Below, piece after piece: positions 57,862-64,000 of a stretch of 64,000 nt of DNA (positions within the stretch are counted from its first letter, which is position 1; every line of letters starts with the position of its first letter). The translations under genes were made by a program, and so were the position numbers. The stretch lies in NCBI RefSeq assembly GCF_000196115.1, contig NC_005027.1, forward strand, positions 6,630,001-6,694,000, in the 5' to 3' direction. Under the pieces are notes generated by a model. It was given only the letters and a program-made list of their open reading frames with translations, was not told the origin of the DNA and ran no database searches. Source of the stretch: Rhodopirellula baltica SH 1 (GTDB lineage Bacteria > Planctomycetota > Planctomycetia > Pirellulales > Pirellulaceae).

Positions 57862-59526
57862 TCAGGGTTGGGTGTTGGTGTACTCCGAAGGTTCCATCCA
57901 ACGAAGATCCTCCCAGTGACCGGTGTCGTTTGGTTGAGGATCGCCGGAAGTGCTTCGCCCGTTCACAACGATCTTTGTGAGAGCATTTCGCAAGCGGCGA
58001 ACAACCGTTGGGTGATCCGATGAGATGTCTTGGGATTCCGATGGGTCGTTGGCGAGGTTGTAGAGTTCTCCTTCATCGTTGTCTCGCCTTGGTGCGATCC
58101 ATTTCCAGTCGCCCGCGGTGATTGCGAATTCGCCTCGTACGCCATGGTTGATCAACGGAACTCGGTGATGTTCGTAGGACGGGTCGAGCAAAATTGATGC
58201 AAAGCTGTGGCTGTCTTCAGCAGCTTCGTCGGGCAACGGTCGGCCAAGCAGTTCGGCCACGGTCGCCAATAAGTCGACTTGTCCGACCAACGCATCACTG
58301 ATTCGGCCGGGTTGCTTGATGCCGTTGGGCCACCGGGCGAGCATGGGGACACGGTGGCCGCCTTCGTAGATATCGCGTTTGCCCCCTCGATAAGAACCAT
58401 TGCTGTGATGACCGAAGTCATCGATGCGTTGCTTCCATGATTTTTCGGGACCGTTGTCGCTGGTCAGAATGACGAGCGTGTTGTCGGTCAATCCGTTGGC
58501 TTCCAAGTGTTTGAGCAAGCGTCCAAGGTGGTGGTCCGTTTCGATCATGAACTCGCCATAGCCGCCACAATCCCCCTGCCCCCAATACTCGGGCAGTGGG
58601 CACACTGGATAGTGCGGCGAAGTCAGTGGCAGGTACAGGAAAAATGGCGGTGCGTTCGACGCTGATTCGTTGCCCGGTGTGGCGGTTGCTTCCGTGATCC
58701 ACTCAATGGCTTCGTCGGTGAAACGAGTCAAGCATTGATTGTCGACAAAGTCATCTGCGACCTCGATGGTGGTGTTCTTGAAACGCTTTCGAGCTTCGGT
58801 CTCCGTCTCCTGGTAGGGAGGCATGATGCGATAATCGACGTGCCGTTTGTTTGGCTTTTTTCCGGTCCAAGACTTTGGAGGAACCGCTGCGTGGCGACCG
58901 TCAAACCACGCCAGCACTCCGTAGTTCAATGAGGCGGGGATTCCAAAGAAGTGATCAAAGCCTTTGTCGAGTGGCATGTCGCGAACGGGTTGCGACCAGT
59001 CTCGCTTTTTGGGTGAGCCAGGAAACTGCATTCCAAGATGCCATTTACCGACCATGCCGGTCTGATACCCTTCGTCGCGAAGAAACGACGCAAGAGTCAT
59101 CCGATCGTCCGCGATCAAACACTTTCCTTCGGCATTCATCACGCCACGTTTGAGCGTTGTTCGCCAACTGTAGCGGCCGGTCAGCAATCCGTAGCGAGAA
59201 GGGGTGCAAACACTGTCGCTGGAATGAGCGTTTGTAAACGTCAGCCCTTCTTTTGCGAGGCGGTCCATATTGGGCGTCTCGAATTTTGCATCGGGGTTCA
59301 TGCTGCTGACATCCCCGAAACCCTGGTCATCGGTGTAGACGATGATCACATTGGGACGAGTGTCGGTCGAACCGATCACCGGGTTTTGCTGAGCGACCGC
59401 CCTGCGAGTCGAGACAGACAAGCAAACCAAACCAACGGCCAGAATCGCGATTGCGCGAAGGCTAAGATTCGATTGGGACAACCGAAGTCGCGAGTGAAGT
59501 GAAATCCAGGTTGAATCCGAGCGCAT
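57862..59526 (-). CDS. Secreted sulfatase (formylglycine type), S1 family
   Basis: 554 aa. A signal or signal-anchor segment at about 24-45 (AIAILAVGLVCLSVSTRRAV). Core VIIVYTDDQGFGDVS with the metal-binding Asp pair. Active site SVCTPSRYGLLTGRYS (Cys107 to formylglycine). Further motifs: GMVGKWHLGM and VILTSDNGPEKSW. It is more like arylsulfatase A than the neighbouring sulfatase is, so the two probably have different substrates. They lie in tandem on the minus strand. Confidence 0.94.
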   Translation of the reverse strand: MRSDSTWISLHSRLRLSQSNLSLRAIAILAVGLVCLSVSTRRAVAQQNPVIGSTDTRPNVIIVYTDDQGFGDVSSMNPDAKFETPNMDRLAKEGLTFTNAHSSDSVCTPSRYGLLTGRYSWRTTLKRGVMNAEGKCLIADDRMTLASFLRDEGYQTGMVGKWHLGMQFPGSPKKRDWSQPVRDMPLDKGFDHFFGIPASLNYGVLAWFDGRHAAVPPKSWTGKKPNKRHVDYRIMPPYQETETEARKRFKNTTIEVADDFVDNQCLTRFTDEAIEWITEATATPGNESASNAPPFFLYLPLTSPHYPVCPLPEYWGQGDCGGYGEFMIETDHHLGRLLKHLEANGLTDNTLVILTSDNGPEKSWKQRIDDFGHHSNGSYRGGKRDIYEGGHRVPMLARWPNGIKQPGRISDALVGQVDLLATVAELLGRPLPDEAAEDSHSFASILLDPSYEHHRVPLINHGVRGEFAITAGDWKWIAPRRDNDEGELYNLANDPSESQDISSDHPTVVRRLRNALTKIVVNGRSTSGDPQPNDTGHWEDLRWMEPSEYTNTQP

Positions 59527-59628: not shown

Positions 59629-61671
59629 CTACTGTTGCTGAGGTTGAAGACGCTCGGCTCGTCGAAAGTACTGCTCAGCTTCGCTCGTATTCCCCAGTGC
59701 ATCGTGCATCGCGCCAAGGTTGTAGGTTGCACTCAGGTGATTGGGGACGATTTCTAGCACGCGCTCGAAGTAGCCGATGGCGTCTTCGGTCCGTTGTTGA
59801 TTTGCCGCGATCACGCCCAAGTTCAAAAGTGCGCTGACGTCTTCCGGGGATTCGTCCAGGACGCTCTGCCACACCTTGCTAGCGTCTTCCCACCGCTGGG
59901 CCGACATCAACACTCGACCAAGGTTGGTGCGATGATCCATTCGCTCGGGAGCGAGTTGCACCGCCTTCTGAAACAATTCGATCGCCTCCTCGTTGCGTCC
60001 TTGCGCCGAACGAAGCGTCGCTAGATTCCCGTATGAGTTGGCGTAGTTCGGATCAATTTCAATGGCTTGTTTCAGTGTCGCCTCGGACGCTTCAAAGTCA
60101 CCCATCATTCCCTGGGTCGCGCCCAATCCGTTGTAAGCTTCGGCGAGTCCAGGGTTCAGTTCGGTGGCACGGGTGTAGAGTGACAATGCTTCCTCCAGGT
60201 CACCCAGGTTTTGACGTGCTTGAGCCAAGTTGATGACTGAGTCGGCGAAGTTCGGTTTGATTTCCAACGAGCGACGCAGGTGTGTTTCGGCCTCGAGGTA
60301 GTCGCCACGTCGGTTCAGCAAGGCACCCAAATTGTTGTGAGCCATGAACGAGTTCGGGTTCTTCTCCAGGGTGTCTCGCCAAAGGACTTCCAGTCCGCTG
60401 TAAATCGTCGCTTGGCTAAACGCCACCGTGGCCAACAGCAACGCTGCGCCGCCTGCCATCAACTTGGGAAGGTGTCGGCCCAGCCCATATTCTTCTTCGT
60501 CGTCCTGTTCTTTGGATTGAAGCCAAGTTGCCACCACGCCAACGATCAATGCGATCAATGGAACACTGGCCATGTAAGCAAAGTGGTCGGCGACAAAAGA
60601 GAAACGCATGGGGTAAACATCAAAGAAACCCAAAGCGGGAAACAGCGTTCCGGCATACAAGCAAACCGCTGCGATTGGGCCACGTCCCAGCCGATGACGC
60701 ATCAAAAACAACGTGACCATGACGGCAACGGCTGCGATCGGGAATGCGTTTTGGGACCATGACGTGACGTCAATTTCCCATCGCGGGTAGGTGAAGATCA
60801 ACTCGGTCGGCCAAACCAGTTTTCCCGCGTAAAACCAAAGGGCTCTGCCCGCGATCAAGACTCGCTGCCATGGGGATAGTTCCCAGTCGATGCCGCTAGC
60901 GCCCACCTGAAACTTTTCCAACCAAACGGTCAGCAATCCCATTCCGATCCCGATCACGAAGAATGGAGCCAGGACGGCAACGTCTCGCAGACGAACCGTG
61001 CCACGTTTCCACCAGATCATCACAATCAACGCGGCAGGCAGCGTGGACGCGACGGTCTTGCTCAACAAAGCTGCAATGAAGCACAGCAGTGCCAGTGCGT
61101 ACCAACGTCGGTTCCGGGGCGCGGACTCATCTGCGATCTCGGGTTGAGTGAAGTCCCAGTACCTCAGCCAACAAAGAATCGTCAGCAATGTGAACAACCC
61201 GGATAGAACGTTCTTTCGTTCGGTGATCCATGCGACGGATTCGACGTGCATCGGGTGAACTGCAAAGAGCAACGCCGCGACGTAGGCACCCGGCACTGAG
61301 AAACGTGACAGCACACGCCAAAGCAGCAACGCACTGATGCAGTGGACAATCACGTTGACCAAGTGATAACCCATCGGATTCAGGCCCCACAGATGATTCT
61401 CAATCCAGAACGAACTGTGAACGATGGGATAGTACTGCGGCGTCGCTGACGGATCCGTCCAGATCGCAATCAGACCGTTGATCGTGTGGAGCGTCGGATT
61501 CTCGGTGACGTAGTCGTCGTCATCCCAAATGAAACCACCTTGGATTGCAGGCAGGTAGGCGATCATGGTCAATGCGAAGAGTGCCGCAGCTAACATCGCA
61601 GTCACAAGCGAGTTGGTGCTGCGAGATGGCTCGTCTGCCGCGGCAAGATTCGATTCCAGGCTGGCGCTCAT
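59629..61671 (-). CDS. TMTC-like membrane O-mannosyltransferase with TPR tail
   Basis: 680 aa, ATGA overlap with the ABC permease gene. The N-terminal ~430 residues are a GT-C membrane fold: the DD motif in FIWDDDDYVTENP and HPMHVESVAWITERKNVLSG, a pattern shared with TMTC and protein O-mannosyltransferases. The C-terminal ~230 residues are a set of about six TPRs (NNLGALLNRRGDYLEAETHL, YGNLATLRSAQGRNEEAIEL). TMTC proteins transfer mannose onto secreted proteins. Planctomycete members are uncharacterised. Its location in a metal-permease operon is unexpected. Confidence 0.82.
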   Translation of the reverse strand: MSASLESNLAAADEPSRSTNSLVTAMLAAALFALTMIAYLPAIQGGFIWDDDDYVTENPTLHTINGLIAIWTDPSATPQYYPIVHSSFWIENHLWGLNPMGYHLVNVIVHCISALLLWRVLSRFSVPGAYVAALLFAVHPMHVESVAWITERKNVLSGLFTLLTILCWLRYWDFTQPEIADESAPRNRRWYALALLCFIAALLSKTVASTLPAALIVMIWWKRGTVRLRDVAVLAPFFVIGIGMGLLTVWLEKFQVGASGIDWELSPWQRVLIAGRALWFYAGKLVWPTELIFTYPRWEIDVTSWSQNAFPIAAVAVMVTLFLMRHRLGRGPIAAVCLYAGTLFPALGFFDVYPMRFSFVADHFAYMASVPLIALIVGVVATWLQSKEQDDEEEYGLGRHLPKLMAGGAALLLATVAFSQATIYSGLEVLWRDTLEKNPNSFMAHNNLGALLNRRGDYLEAETHLRRSLEIKPNFADSVINLAQARQNLGDLEEALSLYTRATELNPGLAEAYNGLGATQGMMGDFEASEATLKQAIEIDPNYANSYGNLATLRSAQGRNEEAIELFQKAVQLAPERMDHRTNLGRVLMSAQRWEDASKVWQSVLDESPEDVSALLNLGVIAANQQRTEDAIGYFERVLEIVPNHLSATYNLGAMHDALGNTSEAEQYFRRAERLQPQQQ

Positions 61672-63116
61672 GATTGTTTGTCACTTGCCGAGGGGATGGG
61701 GCTGCCGTGCGGGTCTTTCTCTGGCGAATCGGTTTGGTGATCGAGTTGGTCCTGCAGTTGTCGATCCGTGAAGTGCTCGAGTTGGTGGGCTTTCTGGTGA
61801 ATTCGACTGCCTTCTAAATCCACCCGCGTGACCAAGTACTGTTCCCACAACCGGTGCGAGCGAACCAATGATTCCGCCTCGGTTCGGCCAACGTCGGTCA
61901 GCTTTGGAACAAACACTTCGGAATGGTCTTTGTCATTGGCCGTGCTGGTCGAAGCATCCGCTTGAGCCGTTTCGATGCGACCTCGCCATGCGTGATACTT
62001 CACCGCTGACTTGATTGCGAAACGGTTGGTCAGCAACACATCGGCCATCCAAGCATCCAGGTCGGCTTGCATTGCCATCGCGTCAGCGATTGGCCGTTCG
62101 TCCAGCGTCTTTTCTTCCATTCGATAAAGTAACGCTAGCACGTCGTCGGTCAAAATGGTCCACCGCAGCCATTGTTTGCGGAACCACTGTGGAATCAGTC
62201 CACGACGAGGTGAACCGACAACGGCCAGAGTGAATGCGAAACCGGTGGCAACTGCCATCATGCCGGCGGTGGTCGTGCTACGGAAACCGAACCAAGTTGG
62301 GATTTCGACGGCGGCGACATGTCCGGCCCATGCGCAGACGGCACCTATCAAGCAAGCCAGCACGATCATCATGCCCAACCGATCGGTCAGCAAATAGGCG
62401 GTCGCGGCGGGCACGACCAGCATGGCAACGACCAAGATATTGCCCACGCTTTCGAAACAGGCAACGGCCGTCACGGCGACCAAAGTCATCAGTACATAGT
62501 GAATCGCTTTGGCCGAGAACCCGCTGGAGGTGGCCAGTTCAGCGTCAAAGGTTGCCATCTTCAGTTCCTTGAAGAACAAGATGACAAATGCCGCGTTGAT
62601 GAAAGTCACGATCGACAGAACCACGACCACGCGAGGGATTTCGGTGGAACCGAGAATCGGTATGGGAACCGTCCACGTATCCAGTGGCGTGGATTCAATC
62701 GCACCGTAGAGCACGCATCCGGGATCGAGATCCACTCGGTCGGCGGCCAACACAATCATCACCAAGCCGGCGGCAAACAACGTGGTGAAGACGACGCCCA
62801 TGGAGGCACCTTCGTCGACTTCACCACGAACGTGAATCCAGTCTGATAGGAGTGCGGTGAGAACACCCACGATCACCGCACCAAGGAACATCCAGCCGCT
62901 GCTTCGGCTGCCCGAGATGAGAAAAGCCGCGGCCAAACCGGGCAACACCGCGTGGCTGATCGCATCACCAAGCAGGCTCATGCGGCGAAGTACCAAAAAG
63001 CAACCGAGCAGCGACGAGGCGACCGCGCACAGCATCCCCGCCGCGACGATCCAACCGTCCAACGCCCAATTCCATTCCACCATCCAAAATGGTTCGGTGT
63101 CAGCCTGTCCGATCAT
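61668..63116 (-). CDS. Mn/Zn/Fe-type ABC permease fused to a DtxR/MntR-like cytosolic domain
   Basis: 482 aa, ATGA overlap with the gene before. Residues ~1-290 are an ABC-3 family permease (like ZnuB/MntB/SitD): LLGCFLVLRRMSLLGDAISH, LPGLAAAFLISG, GNILVVAMLVVPAATAYLL. The C-terminal ~180 residues are soluble. They include a winged-helix-like part (TDDVLALLYRMEEKTLDERP), and LTDVGRTEAESLVRSHRLWE followed by HQLEHFTDRQLQDQL, matching the metal-binding and dimerisation domain of DtxR/MntR repressors. Transport of Mn, Zn or Fe is expected, with the tail sensing the metal. The fold assignment of the tail is by eye. Confidence 0.85.
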   Translation of the reverse strand: MIGQADTEPFWMVEWNWALDGWIVAAGMLCAVASSLLGCFLVLRRMSLLGDAISHAVLPGLAAAFLISGSRSSGWMFLGAVIVGVLTALLSDWIHVRGEVDEGASMGVVFTTLFAAGLVMIVLAADRVDLDPGCVLYGAIESTPLDTWTVPIPILGSTEIPRVVVVLSIVTFINAAFVILFFKELKMATFDAELATSSGFSAKAIHYVLMTLVAVTAVACFESVGNILVVAMLVVPAATAYLLTDRLGMMIVLACLIGAVCAWAGHVAAVEIPTWFGFRSTTTAGMMAVATGFAFTLAVVGSPRRGLIPQWFRKQWLRWTILTDDVLALLYRMEEKTLDERPIADAMAMQADLDAWMADVLLTNRFAIKSAVKYHAWRGRIETAQADASTSTANDKDHSEVFVPKLTDVGRTEAESLVRSHRLWEQYLVTRVDLEGSRIHQKAHQLEHFTDRQLQDQLDHQTDSPEKDPHGSPIPSASDKQS

Positions 63117-64000
63117 GCTTCGACTCCTTCGGTGGAGGAAGCGTGCGGGTCGGTTGGCATACGACGTTCACCCAGTTCTGCGTTGAGCAGCGATTCGAGT
63201 TCTGCAACCGTTTCGGGTTCGAGCACGTGTTCAATCGCATCGGCATCCCGGTCGACTCGTTGAGGAGCGATGTCGGCATGGTGAATCAAATACAGTTCCC
63301 ACAATCGGTGACGCCGTGTCAGCCGGCGAGCCTCCGATTCACCTCGTTTGGTGAGGGCGAATTCCATCTTTGTAATGTTCTCGCTGATCCATCCATCGCT
63401 GGATGCCTGTTCCAAAATTTTACGCAATCGTTTGTTCGACCAACTGCGGGCTTGCACCAATTCTTCCCAAGAAACGGACAGCCGGCTCGGGTCGGTTTCG
63501 AACAATTCGTAGAGTTCTCGCAGCAGGTGCTGACGATCGATGCTGGCGTTGAGGGACCGACGACGCCACATCCGAATCAGCAAACCGCGGCGGGCACCGA
63601 CAAAGAAACTGATGAGAAAACCCACTCCGGTTGTCAGCACGATCATCGCACCGCTGGGCAGTCGCGGCAGCATCGCGCTGGCGGCGGCTCCCACCAAACA
63701 CCCCACCATTCCGATCGCTGACGAGAGCACCATCATCCAAACCAAACGGTCCGTCCAAAACCGAGCCGAAGCGGCGGGGATGACCAAAAGCGCGATCACC
63801 AATACGAGGCCAACCGCCTGCAGGCCGATGATCGTGATCACCACCACGACGCTCATCAATGCCGCATCGAGCAACACGACCGGGTAGCCTCGCGAGCCGG
63901 CAAAGGCTTCGTCAAAACAAAGCAGCTTGAATTCCTTGAACAGCCCCACGCAGATCACCACGCAGATCAACGATGCGATCGCGATCAACCACGCGTCGCT
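63113..64000 (-). CDS. Mn/Zn/Fe-type ABC permease fused to DtxR/MntR-like domain (N-terminus outside window)
   Basis: The reading frame is open to the right edge, so the gene begins outside; 296 codons are seen. The membrane part (KEFKLLCFDEAFAGSRGYPV, VGLVLVIALLVIPAASARFW) is ABC-3 permease helices 5-8. The cytosolic tail is a fuller DtxR-like module: helix-turn-helix (LRELYELFETDPSRLSVSWE, RKILEQASSDGWISE), LTKRGESEARRLTRRHRLWE, then LIHHADIAPQRVDRDADAIE with the ligands His/Glu of the dimerisation domain. It overlaps the second permease by 4 bp. The ATP-binding and solute-binding proteins should lie upstream, beyond the window. Confidence 0.87.
   Translation of the reverse strand, partial: SDAWLIAIASLICVVICVGLFKEFKLLCFDEAFAGSRGYPVVLLDAALMSVVVVITIIGLQAVGLVLVIALLVIPAASARFWTDRLVWMMVLSSAIGMVGCLVGAAASAMLPRLPSGAMIVLTTGVGFLISFFVGARRGLLIRMWRRRSLNASIDRQHLLRELYELFETDPSRLSVSWEELVQARSWSNKRLRKILEQASSDGWISENITKMEFALTKRGESEARRLTRRHRLWELYLIHHADIAPQRVDRDADAIEHVLEPETVAELESLLNAELGERRMPTDPHASSTEGVEA

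Follow-up and report, generated by a model that had tools for sequence, protein, structure and literature searches.

The last 2.3 kb of a 64,000-nucleotide stretch of the Rhodopirellula baltica SH 1 genome (contig NC_005027.1, bases 6630001-6694000 of 7.15 Mb; this whole stretch is referred to as the window) belong to a metal-uptake operon on the minus strand and comprise its 3' part; in this operon, two successive ATP-binding cassette (ABC) permeases each end in a tail that resembles the metal-responsive repressors DtxR and MntR. The sensor is kept on both halves of the importer, a recognisable DNA-reading part is lacking and a free regulator is present, which together points to control of importer activity. 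At about even chances, we infer that the tails form a cytosolic pair of metal sensors which would adjust the activity of the importer by transinhibition.

Permease 2 is complete in the window (61668..63116, minus strand, 482 aa), whereas permease 1, which is TroC/PsaC-like, occupies 63113..64000 on the same strand and runs 447 bases past the window edge; in the whole genome it comprises 444 aa, the first 149 of which lie outside the window. Both were taken from the list of open reading frames. PF00950 (ABC-3) was detected in permeases 1 and 2 (E 1.3e-43 and 2.3e-28; 149.9 and 99.8 bits against a cut-off of 20.1), as was PF02742, the DtxR metal-binding/dimerisation domain (E 1.2e-20 and 8.3e-15, over the curated cut-off). 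When permease 2 was compared with PDB sequences by phmmer, its front part matched PsaC and its tail DtxR-family repressors. AlphaFold2 models were built on alignments of 42 and 44 sequences, permease 1 being modelled as its window part only, and reached a mean predicted local distance difference test (pLDDT) score of 90.7 for permease 2 and 87.7 for the window part of permease 1. The top Foldseek match of the permease 2 model was PsaC (7kyp, E 5.5e-14, 28% identity), followed by the manganese regulator DR2539, IdeR and DtxR with E-values of 7e-5 and weaker and TM-scores by target of at most 0.84. For the cut permease 1 piece PsaC was again the top match (E 2.9e-4), but the superposition was poor (TM-score ~0.25, root-mean-square deviation (rmsd) ~9). 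Its matches to DR2539, ScaR, MntR and DtxR (E 1e-3 and weaker) superposed with an rmsd of 2.2-3.2 over about 120 columns, and TM-scores by target were mostly 0.7-0.8 on two-domain chains and reached 0.81.

In the permease 2 model, a single predicted helix of residues 307-340 (62097..62198, minus strand) forms the first tail helix, bears D325 and begins five residues past the last membrane helix (283-301). The junction was modelled with a pLDDT of ~96 for residues 301-330 and 85 for residues 331-340, and a disordered linker is absent. In both models the last membrane helix leads into a confidently predicted tail helix, with no flexible linker between them. Judging from the number of helices counted off the coupling-helix side and from a run of Arg/Lys residues after the last helix, the tails probably lie on the cytosolic side.

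The tail of permease 1 (63116..63553, minus strand) is composed of a winged-helix part followed by a metal-binding/dimerisation part, as delineated by the AlphaFold2 helices and the Foldseek matches to DR2539, ScaR and MntR, and was assigned to a tail class designated I. The tail of permease 2 (61671..62171, minus strand; AlphaFold2, and Foldseek matches to IdeR, DR2539 and DtxR) was assigned to class II. On the same strand, the PF02742 domain spans 63182..63352 in tail 1, with the candidate ligands H380, E384, D399, D403, E406 and H407 (numbering of the full protein), and 61692..61898 in tail 2, with H421, E425, H440, H444, E447 and H448. These residues fall on positions 79/83/98/102/105/106, which we take to be the ligand positions of DtxR, and all six are filled, by H,E,D,D,E,H in tail 1 and by H,E,H,H,E,H in tail 2. 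The N-terminal ligand position is occupied by H307 in tail 1 (about 63527-63529, minus strand) and by D325 in tail 2. Judged by PF02742, the ligand columns and the predicted fold, both tails qualify as metal domains of DtxR/MntR type, and with the ligand set and fold of a metal sensor they are predicted to bind metal; they differ chiefly in their ligand sets. A first-pass annotation, made from the letters of the window, had described two successive ABC-3 permeases with DtxR/MntR-like tails, and this description holds for both domain content and predicted structure. The motifs it had reported, RRHRLWE in the first and RSHRLWE in the second permease, were both located, the search for metal ligands that it had proposed found every dimerisation-domain position filled, and the proposed structural comparison of the tails returned the MntR/IdeR/DtxR family after PsaC.

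Related proteins were collected from other genomes. PF02742 matches were obtained in 79 of 147 planctomycete genomes, R. baltica counted. Of 40 stretches that were fetched, 33 held at least one tailed permease; they come from 31 genomes, or 32 together with R. baltica. A pattern scan of genome contigs with the alignment A1 further yielded 567 confirmed loci, the best 80 of which include members of Planctomycetota, Verrucomicrobiota, Omnitrophota, Sumerlaeota, Latescibacterota, Bacteroidota, a gammaproteobacterial bin, Chloroflexota and Bacillota; no chlamydial locus was among these best 80. Over all loci 217 permeases were analysed, of which 130 carry tails of at least 110 aa, 29 a winged helix only and 58 tails shorter than 40 aa. 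In the 130 long tails, H79 is retained in 119, E83 in 122, E105 in 123 and H106 in 121, and these counts are not ligand-selected. Because the ligands helped to define classes I and II, the constancy of these residues within each class is not independent evidence. PF02742 (E <=0.01) was present in 50/50 class I tails, 40/40 class II tails, 29/35 other tails and 38/38 free regulators.

The tail types are distributed unevenly over the phyla. Most double-tailed operons, found in Planctomycetota and also in Omnitrophota (L077) and Latescibacterota (L080, L083), carry class I (H79 E83 D98 D102 E105 H106) on permease 1 and class II (H E H, then E, H, D or M, in one case A, then E H) on permease 2. 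The D98 of class I stands where DtxR has H98. In Verrucomicrobiota a class I tail is found on permease 1, and permease 2 is bare where its gene is complete. Other planctomycetes and scattered phyla have H,E,H,E,E,H on permease 1 and a winged-helix-only or bare permease 2, which in L047, L056 and L057 is also long-tailed. Chloroflexota-type operons mostly bear winged-helix-only tails on both permeases, and the permease 1 tails of Bacillota are ligand-free in five loci, short in L090, or missing. Altogether 12 long tails are ligand-poor, four of them in L060 and L061, where both permeases are ligand-depleted. In genome G022 the class II permease (L042) and the class I permease (L043) lie ~3.5 Mb apart on the contig, and both tails are kept.

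A further type comprises single permeases with a tail of ~210 aa (L054, L062-L066, L068 and L123; ~500-530 aa where the start is clear), which leaves room for the SH3/FeoA-like third domain of DtxR. A FeoA match was obtained in two members of A4, the set of other tails. In the planctomycete loci L069-L072, LolD/FtsE-type ABC ATPases lead into a DtxR metal-binding domain that has Cys close to its ligands and thus represent a second kind of transporter part bearing a DtxR sensor (PF00005 and PF02742 were scanned in L070 and L071, and L069 and L072 were assigned by likeness). Proteins of ~345 aa that combine a DtxR domain with a FeoA-like end occur in L067 (3241-4275), L074 (4807-5841) and L075 (4268-5308), of which L075 was scanned for PF02742 and PF04023. 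In L067 and L075 the N-terminus consists of a single hydrophobic segment and, after it, a PxxGL-type turn and a helix, and looks like a last membrane helix and tail without the transporter; the gene in L067 adjoins a free DtxR gene.

To the permease tree 211 of the 217 permeases were entered. It separates permease 1 from permease 2, with 96/98 second and 5/113 first permeases on one side (support 0.955), and bare permeases occur on both sides. Three of the seven misplaced rows are one-permease loci, and for the other four, in L092 and L128, frames that are too long had disturbed the order of the genes. In the tail tree (150 of 156 sequences entered; four class I tails and two free regulators without the anchor motif were left out), 114 permease tails of classes I, II and A and of the single-permease type group together in a single clade that excludes the 36 free regulators, with a support of 0.968 for both domains and 0.944 for the metal domain alone. 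One tail clade combined with a split permease tree indicates that tails with a common origin are carried by two permease lineages that separated long ago. A derivation of the tails from adjacent free regulators was considered and rejected on the basis of this single clade.

The DtxR DNA-binding domain PF01325 was searched for at the same threshold and was found in 0/50 class I, 0/40 class II and 1/35 other tails, compared with 38/38 free regulators, a set that was chosen by phmmer with whole regulators (score >=100) and therefore favours members with a DNA-binding domain. The free set consists of the R. baltica MntR and 37 of 38 regulators from the loci (L100 was dropped as a duplicate of L044), class II of 40 of 41 tails (without permease 1 of L097) and A4 of 35 of 39 (without L100, both L056 tails and L128). 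Neither window tail matched PF01325 at E 0.01, and the winged-helix model PF24409 was matched weakly by tail 1 (E 0.002, under its cut-off) and not by tail 2. The first-pass annotation had attributed the more complete DNA-binding part to the first tail. This is doubtful; the weak PF24409 match speaks for it, whereas the TM-scores to two-domain repressors, up to 0.84 for tail 2 and up to 0.81 for tail 1 on a shorter chain, speak to the contrary.

The DNA-binding half of the tails diverges fast in sequence. Among pairs with 60-75% identity in the stretch from H79 to H106, which contains the ligands that partly define the classes, the winged helix is 24% identical in class I (670 pairs) and in class II (166 pairs) and 43% in free regulators (202 pairs). 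At the start of the reading helix 33/38 free regulators have V, and 42/50 class I tails have W, which is also found there in 20/20 winged-helix-only tails of permease 2 but not in the nine of permease 1. The net charge of the winged helix was tried as a discriminator of tails and free regulators and rejected, as no difference was seen among the 163 sequences counted (class I, class II, A4 and free regulators; three sequences in class I or the free set lacked the anchor, as did four more in A4). Loss of PF01325 is not unique to fused tails. L030, L032 and L033 encode free proteins of ~220-240 aa in which a degenerate-looking winged helix is joined to a DtxR metal domain rich in Cys (ACEFEH, CPHG, CC). 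They resemble the tails of the ATPase fusions; no PF01325 match was found in the host genomes of L030 and L033, and one lies elsewhere in that of L032. At the comparative level, the retention of the metal domain in classes I and II without a recognisable DNA-reading domain looks new.

Transcription of the importer genes could be served by free regulators. The R. baltica genome encodes a free MntR of 137 aa with PF01325 and PF02742, and a PF01325 match (E <=0.001) was obtained in 32/32 tail-bearing planctomycete genomes, over the cut-off in 31 and weakly in G114. Among the matches listed for these 32 genomes (down to E ~7e-4), none fell in a tailed-permease frame. In the upstream regions of 103 loci with a binding-protein gene, TGTAGC-N4-GCTACA (<=1 mismatch) was found in 16 loci and TCTTGA-N4-TCAAGA in five, compared with 0.08 and 0.12 expected from shuffles. 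Among class I operons, the former palindrome was present in 5/8 loci with an MntR-type and 0/12 with a DtxR-type regulator, the latter in 0/8 and 4/12 (Fisher tests, p 0.0036 and 0.12, respectively), and TGTAGC-N4-GCTACA was also seen in 9/27 loci without a regulator. The same tail class therefore stands behind different palindromes, and in these few loci the palindromes track the family of the free regulator and not the tail. In L155, TGTAGC-N4-GCTACA is present together with MntR, and the permeases have no metal domain. In the verrucomicrobial loci L111, L118, L140 and L148, ATCTTGA-N4-TCAAGAT lies between a divergent free DtxR-type regulator and the importer operon and is a likely operator. 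A third motif, TTTTGAC-N2-GTCAAAA, was scanned with <=2 mismatches and no shuffle control and was not used in the class I counts; the four DtxR-type class I cases carry TCTTGA-N4-TCAAGA. A wider palindrome pattern with two mismatches was uninformative (78 forward matches against 1104 in the reversed control). The R. baltica genome has three TTAGC-N4-GCTAA sites, two of which precede the listed start of the free mntR by 122 and 224 bases, and none was found near the importer operon.

According to the favoured reading, binding protein, ATPase, permease 1 and permease 2 would make up an importer of Mn/Fe type with a cytosolic DtxR-fold tail on each permease. The two permeases would pair as a heterodimer in the membrane, and the tails would consequently sit as a built-in heterodimer beneath it. 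Of DtxR, the metal-binding/dimerisation half is retained in the tails, and the DNA-reading half is no longer recognisable. At high cytosolic Mn(II) or Fe(II), metal would bind to the tails, whose closure could change either the permease or the way it meets the ATPase, so that import slows down. Closure could have this effect because no flexible linker separates the last membrane helix from the first tail helix, which bears one ligand position. Transcription of the operon would be left to the separate free MntR/DtxR. More tentatively, and at somewhat less than even chances, the tails might form a heterodimeric, membrane-linked gauge in which two different ligand sets, one with two Asp and one with His/Glu, inhibit uptake directly while the free MntR handles transcription.

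Several observations weigh against this reading. The gating is deduced from sequences and models, and the transinhibition domains known so far belong to the ATPase subunit. In some lineages the tail persists although it has lost ligands (12 tails) or has no metal domain at all (29 winged-helix-only tails); metal sensing can therefore not be the only role of the tail, and a metal-independent role is perhaps a contact with the permease or the ATPase. The winged-helix part still has a DtxR-like fold according to Foldseek, and its mean net charge is +2.1 in class I and +1.3 in class II, compared with +2.0 in free regulators, so that DNA binding of an unusual kind is conceivable. Class I further keeps R (42/50) and W (42/50) near the reading helix, which might contact anything. 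The palindrome association comprises 20 loci only, TCTTGA-N4-TCAAGA alone is not significant, and the association partly follows phylum, because the DtxR-type loci with the motif are all verrucomicrobial. The R. baltica operon has no such palindrome near its binding-protein gene, where weak matches were no more frequent than in shuffles. Finally, the corresponding tail of Chlamydia is released and binds DNA, as reported in excerpts of PMC5599777, PMC7755916 and PMC6504234.

This chlamydial protein, Chlamydia trachomatis YtgC (same excerpts), is the precedent for the view that the tails, either released by proteolysis or tethered to the membrane, bind DNA together with metal and repress their own operon. 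The domain order is the same, and the winged helix keeps the DtxR fold and a positive charge. We nevertheless regard this as rather unlikely for the operon studied here, given that PF01325 was found in 0/90 tails and 38/38 free regulators, that the winged-helix part diverges fast, that all 32 tailed-permease genomes have a PF01325 match (31 over the cut-off), and that palindromes differ between operons of the same tail class and track the free regulator; the models without a flexible linker are weak evidence in the same direction. DNA binding near the membrane, which the first-pass annotation had offered beside closure of the channel, is made less likely by the absence of PF01325 from 90/90 tails and by palindromes that follow the family of the free regulator, and gating of the transporter, as we infer it, is retained as the more likely role.

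Alternatively, the tails might accept the metal leaving the channel, or hold the permease pair and the ATPase together, with no feedback on import. Winged-helix-only tails without a metal domain persist on both permeases of Chloroflexota-type operons and ligand-poor tails in Bacillota, which implies a metal-independent role for part of the tail, and a W is conserved in 20/20 winged-helix-only tails of permease 2, though not in the nine of permease 1. Since it leaves unexplained why the DtxR sensor and its ligand set are kept on both permeases of double-tailed operons, this explanation is unlikely. That the fusion is vestigial or decaying and of no importance appears very improbable. Decay would account for the short tails (58/217), the 29 winged-helix-only tails and the 12 ligand-poor long tails, but the 31-column stretch from H79 to H106, which includes the class-defining ligand columns, has a mean identity of 69% among 50 class I and 54% among 40 class II tails, and two long matching frames within 2 kb were counted from the match listing in 18/60 genomes of the same family. 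If the transinhibition reading is correct, it would provide a concrete case of a fused sensor, present in Planctomycetota, Verrucomicrobiota, Omnitrophota and Latescibacterota, that feeds back directly on manganese/iron import.

Read past the window (locus L004), the operon has the order Nudix hydrolase, binding protein, ATPase, permease 1, permease 2 and a 680-aa TPR protein, with overlaps of 1 to 4 bases between adjacent genes from the ATPase onward. The binding-protein gene matched PF01297 (E 3.4e-77) and the ATPase gene PF00005 (E 1.3e-29). The best NCBIfam matches were AztC, EfaA, SloC and MntC for the former and a manganese/iron ABC ATPase for the latter, all below cut-off; both proteins are closest to Zn and Mn/Fe systems. 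Genes for a ZnuA/TroA-type binding protein and an ATPase thus accompany the permeases, as in other ABC-3 importers. The TPR protein (59629..61671, minus strand; open reading frame list and domain scan) is a membrane protein whose gene overlaps that of permease 2 by 4 bases and is probably co-transcribed with it. Downstream of the operon lies a sulfatase-like gene (57862-59526) with a CTPSR motif, which we take to be of sulfatase type.

Compared with known systems, the tails resemble MntR, IdeR and DtxR in predicted fold, PF02742 and ligand positions, and D at position 102 of tail 1 is shared with the C102D variants of DtxR in structures 1ddn and 2qq9, going by the entry titles. They differ in being covalently attached to a transporter and in having no detectable PF01325. 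We know of no permease of the PsaBC, TroCD, SitCD or MntBC importers that bears a cytosolic sensor tail. The likeness to these importers lies in the permease fold (7kyp, with chains of 258-290 residues) and in the gene set. The regulatory domains of MetNI and ModABC have another fold than DtxR. Transinhibition of MetNI and ModABC by small fused domains is established, according to excerpts of the review PMC10710835, and the analogy is confined to the proposed action, in which the imported substrate would engage a small fused domain on the cytosolic side and thereby close the importer. DtxR is not mentioned in the main text of this review, and a search of the open-licence literature for planctomycete fusions or a transporter-gating role of DtxR tails found none.

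The closest known system is YtgC (CT069) of C. trachomatis, whose C-terminal DtxR-like domain YtgR is removed by cleavage and acts with Fe(II) as a repressor of its own operon (PMC5599777, PMC7755916, PMC6504234, PMC10972484, all in excerpt). Cleavage occurs in infection, and in the presence of Fe(II) the released tail binds to the ytg promoter and represses it (PMC5599777, PMC7755916, PMC6504234); orthologous permease-repressor fusions in 11 phyla are mentioned in the review PMC5599777, which credits them to Thompson et al. 2012. Because of this precedent, a permease-DtxR fusion is not new, and the assumptions of the first-pass annotation that known DtxR/MntR proteins are soluble and that there was no known study of how such fusions work have to be given up. 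As in YtgCR, an ABC-type permease continues into a DtxR-like tail whose metal ligands are conserved, an architecture identified here by Pfam, AlphaFold2 and Foldseek, and the operon also encodes a binding protein, an ATPase and a second permease (PMC5599777). If the tails act by transinhibition, cleavage and DNA binding of the chlamydial protein would appear as a later specialisation. In the excerpts on Chlamydia, a tail is named on YtgC only, is released and binds DNA, and YtgR is the only iron-dependent regulator identified. In R. baltica, by comparison with this published description, both permeases are tailed, the two ligand sets differ, the DtxR DNA-binding signature is missing, and a free MntR exists in the same genome, so that the tails are not the only such regulators of the cell.

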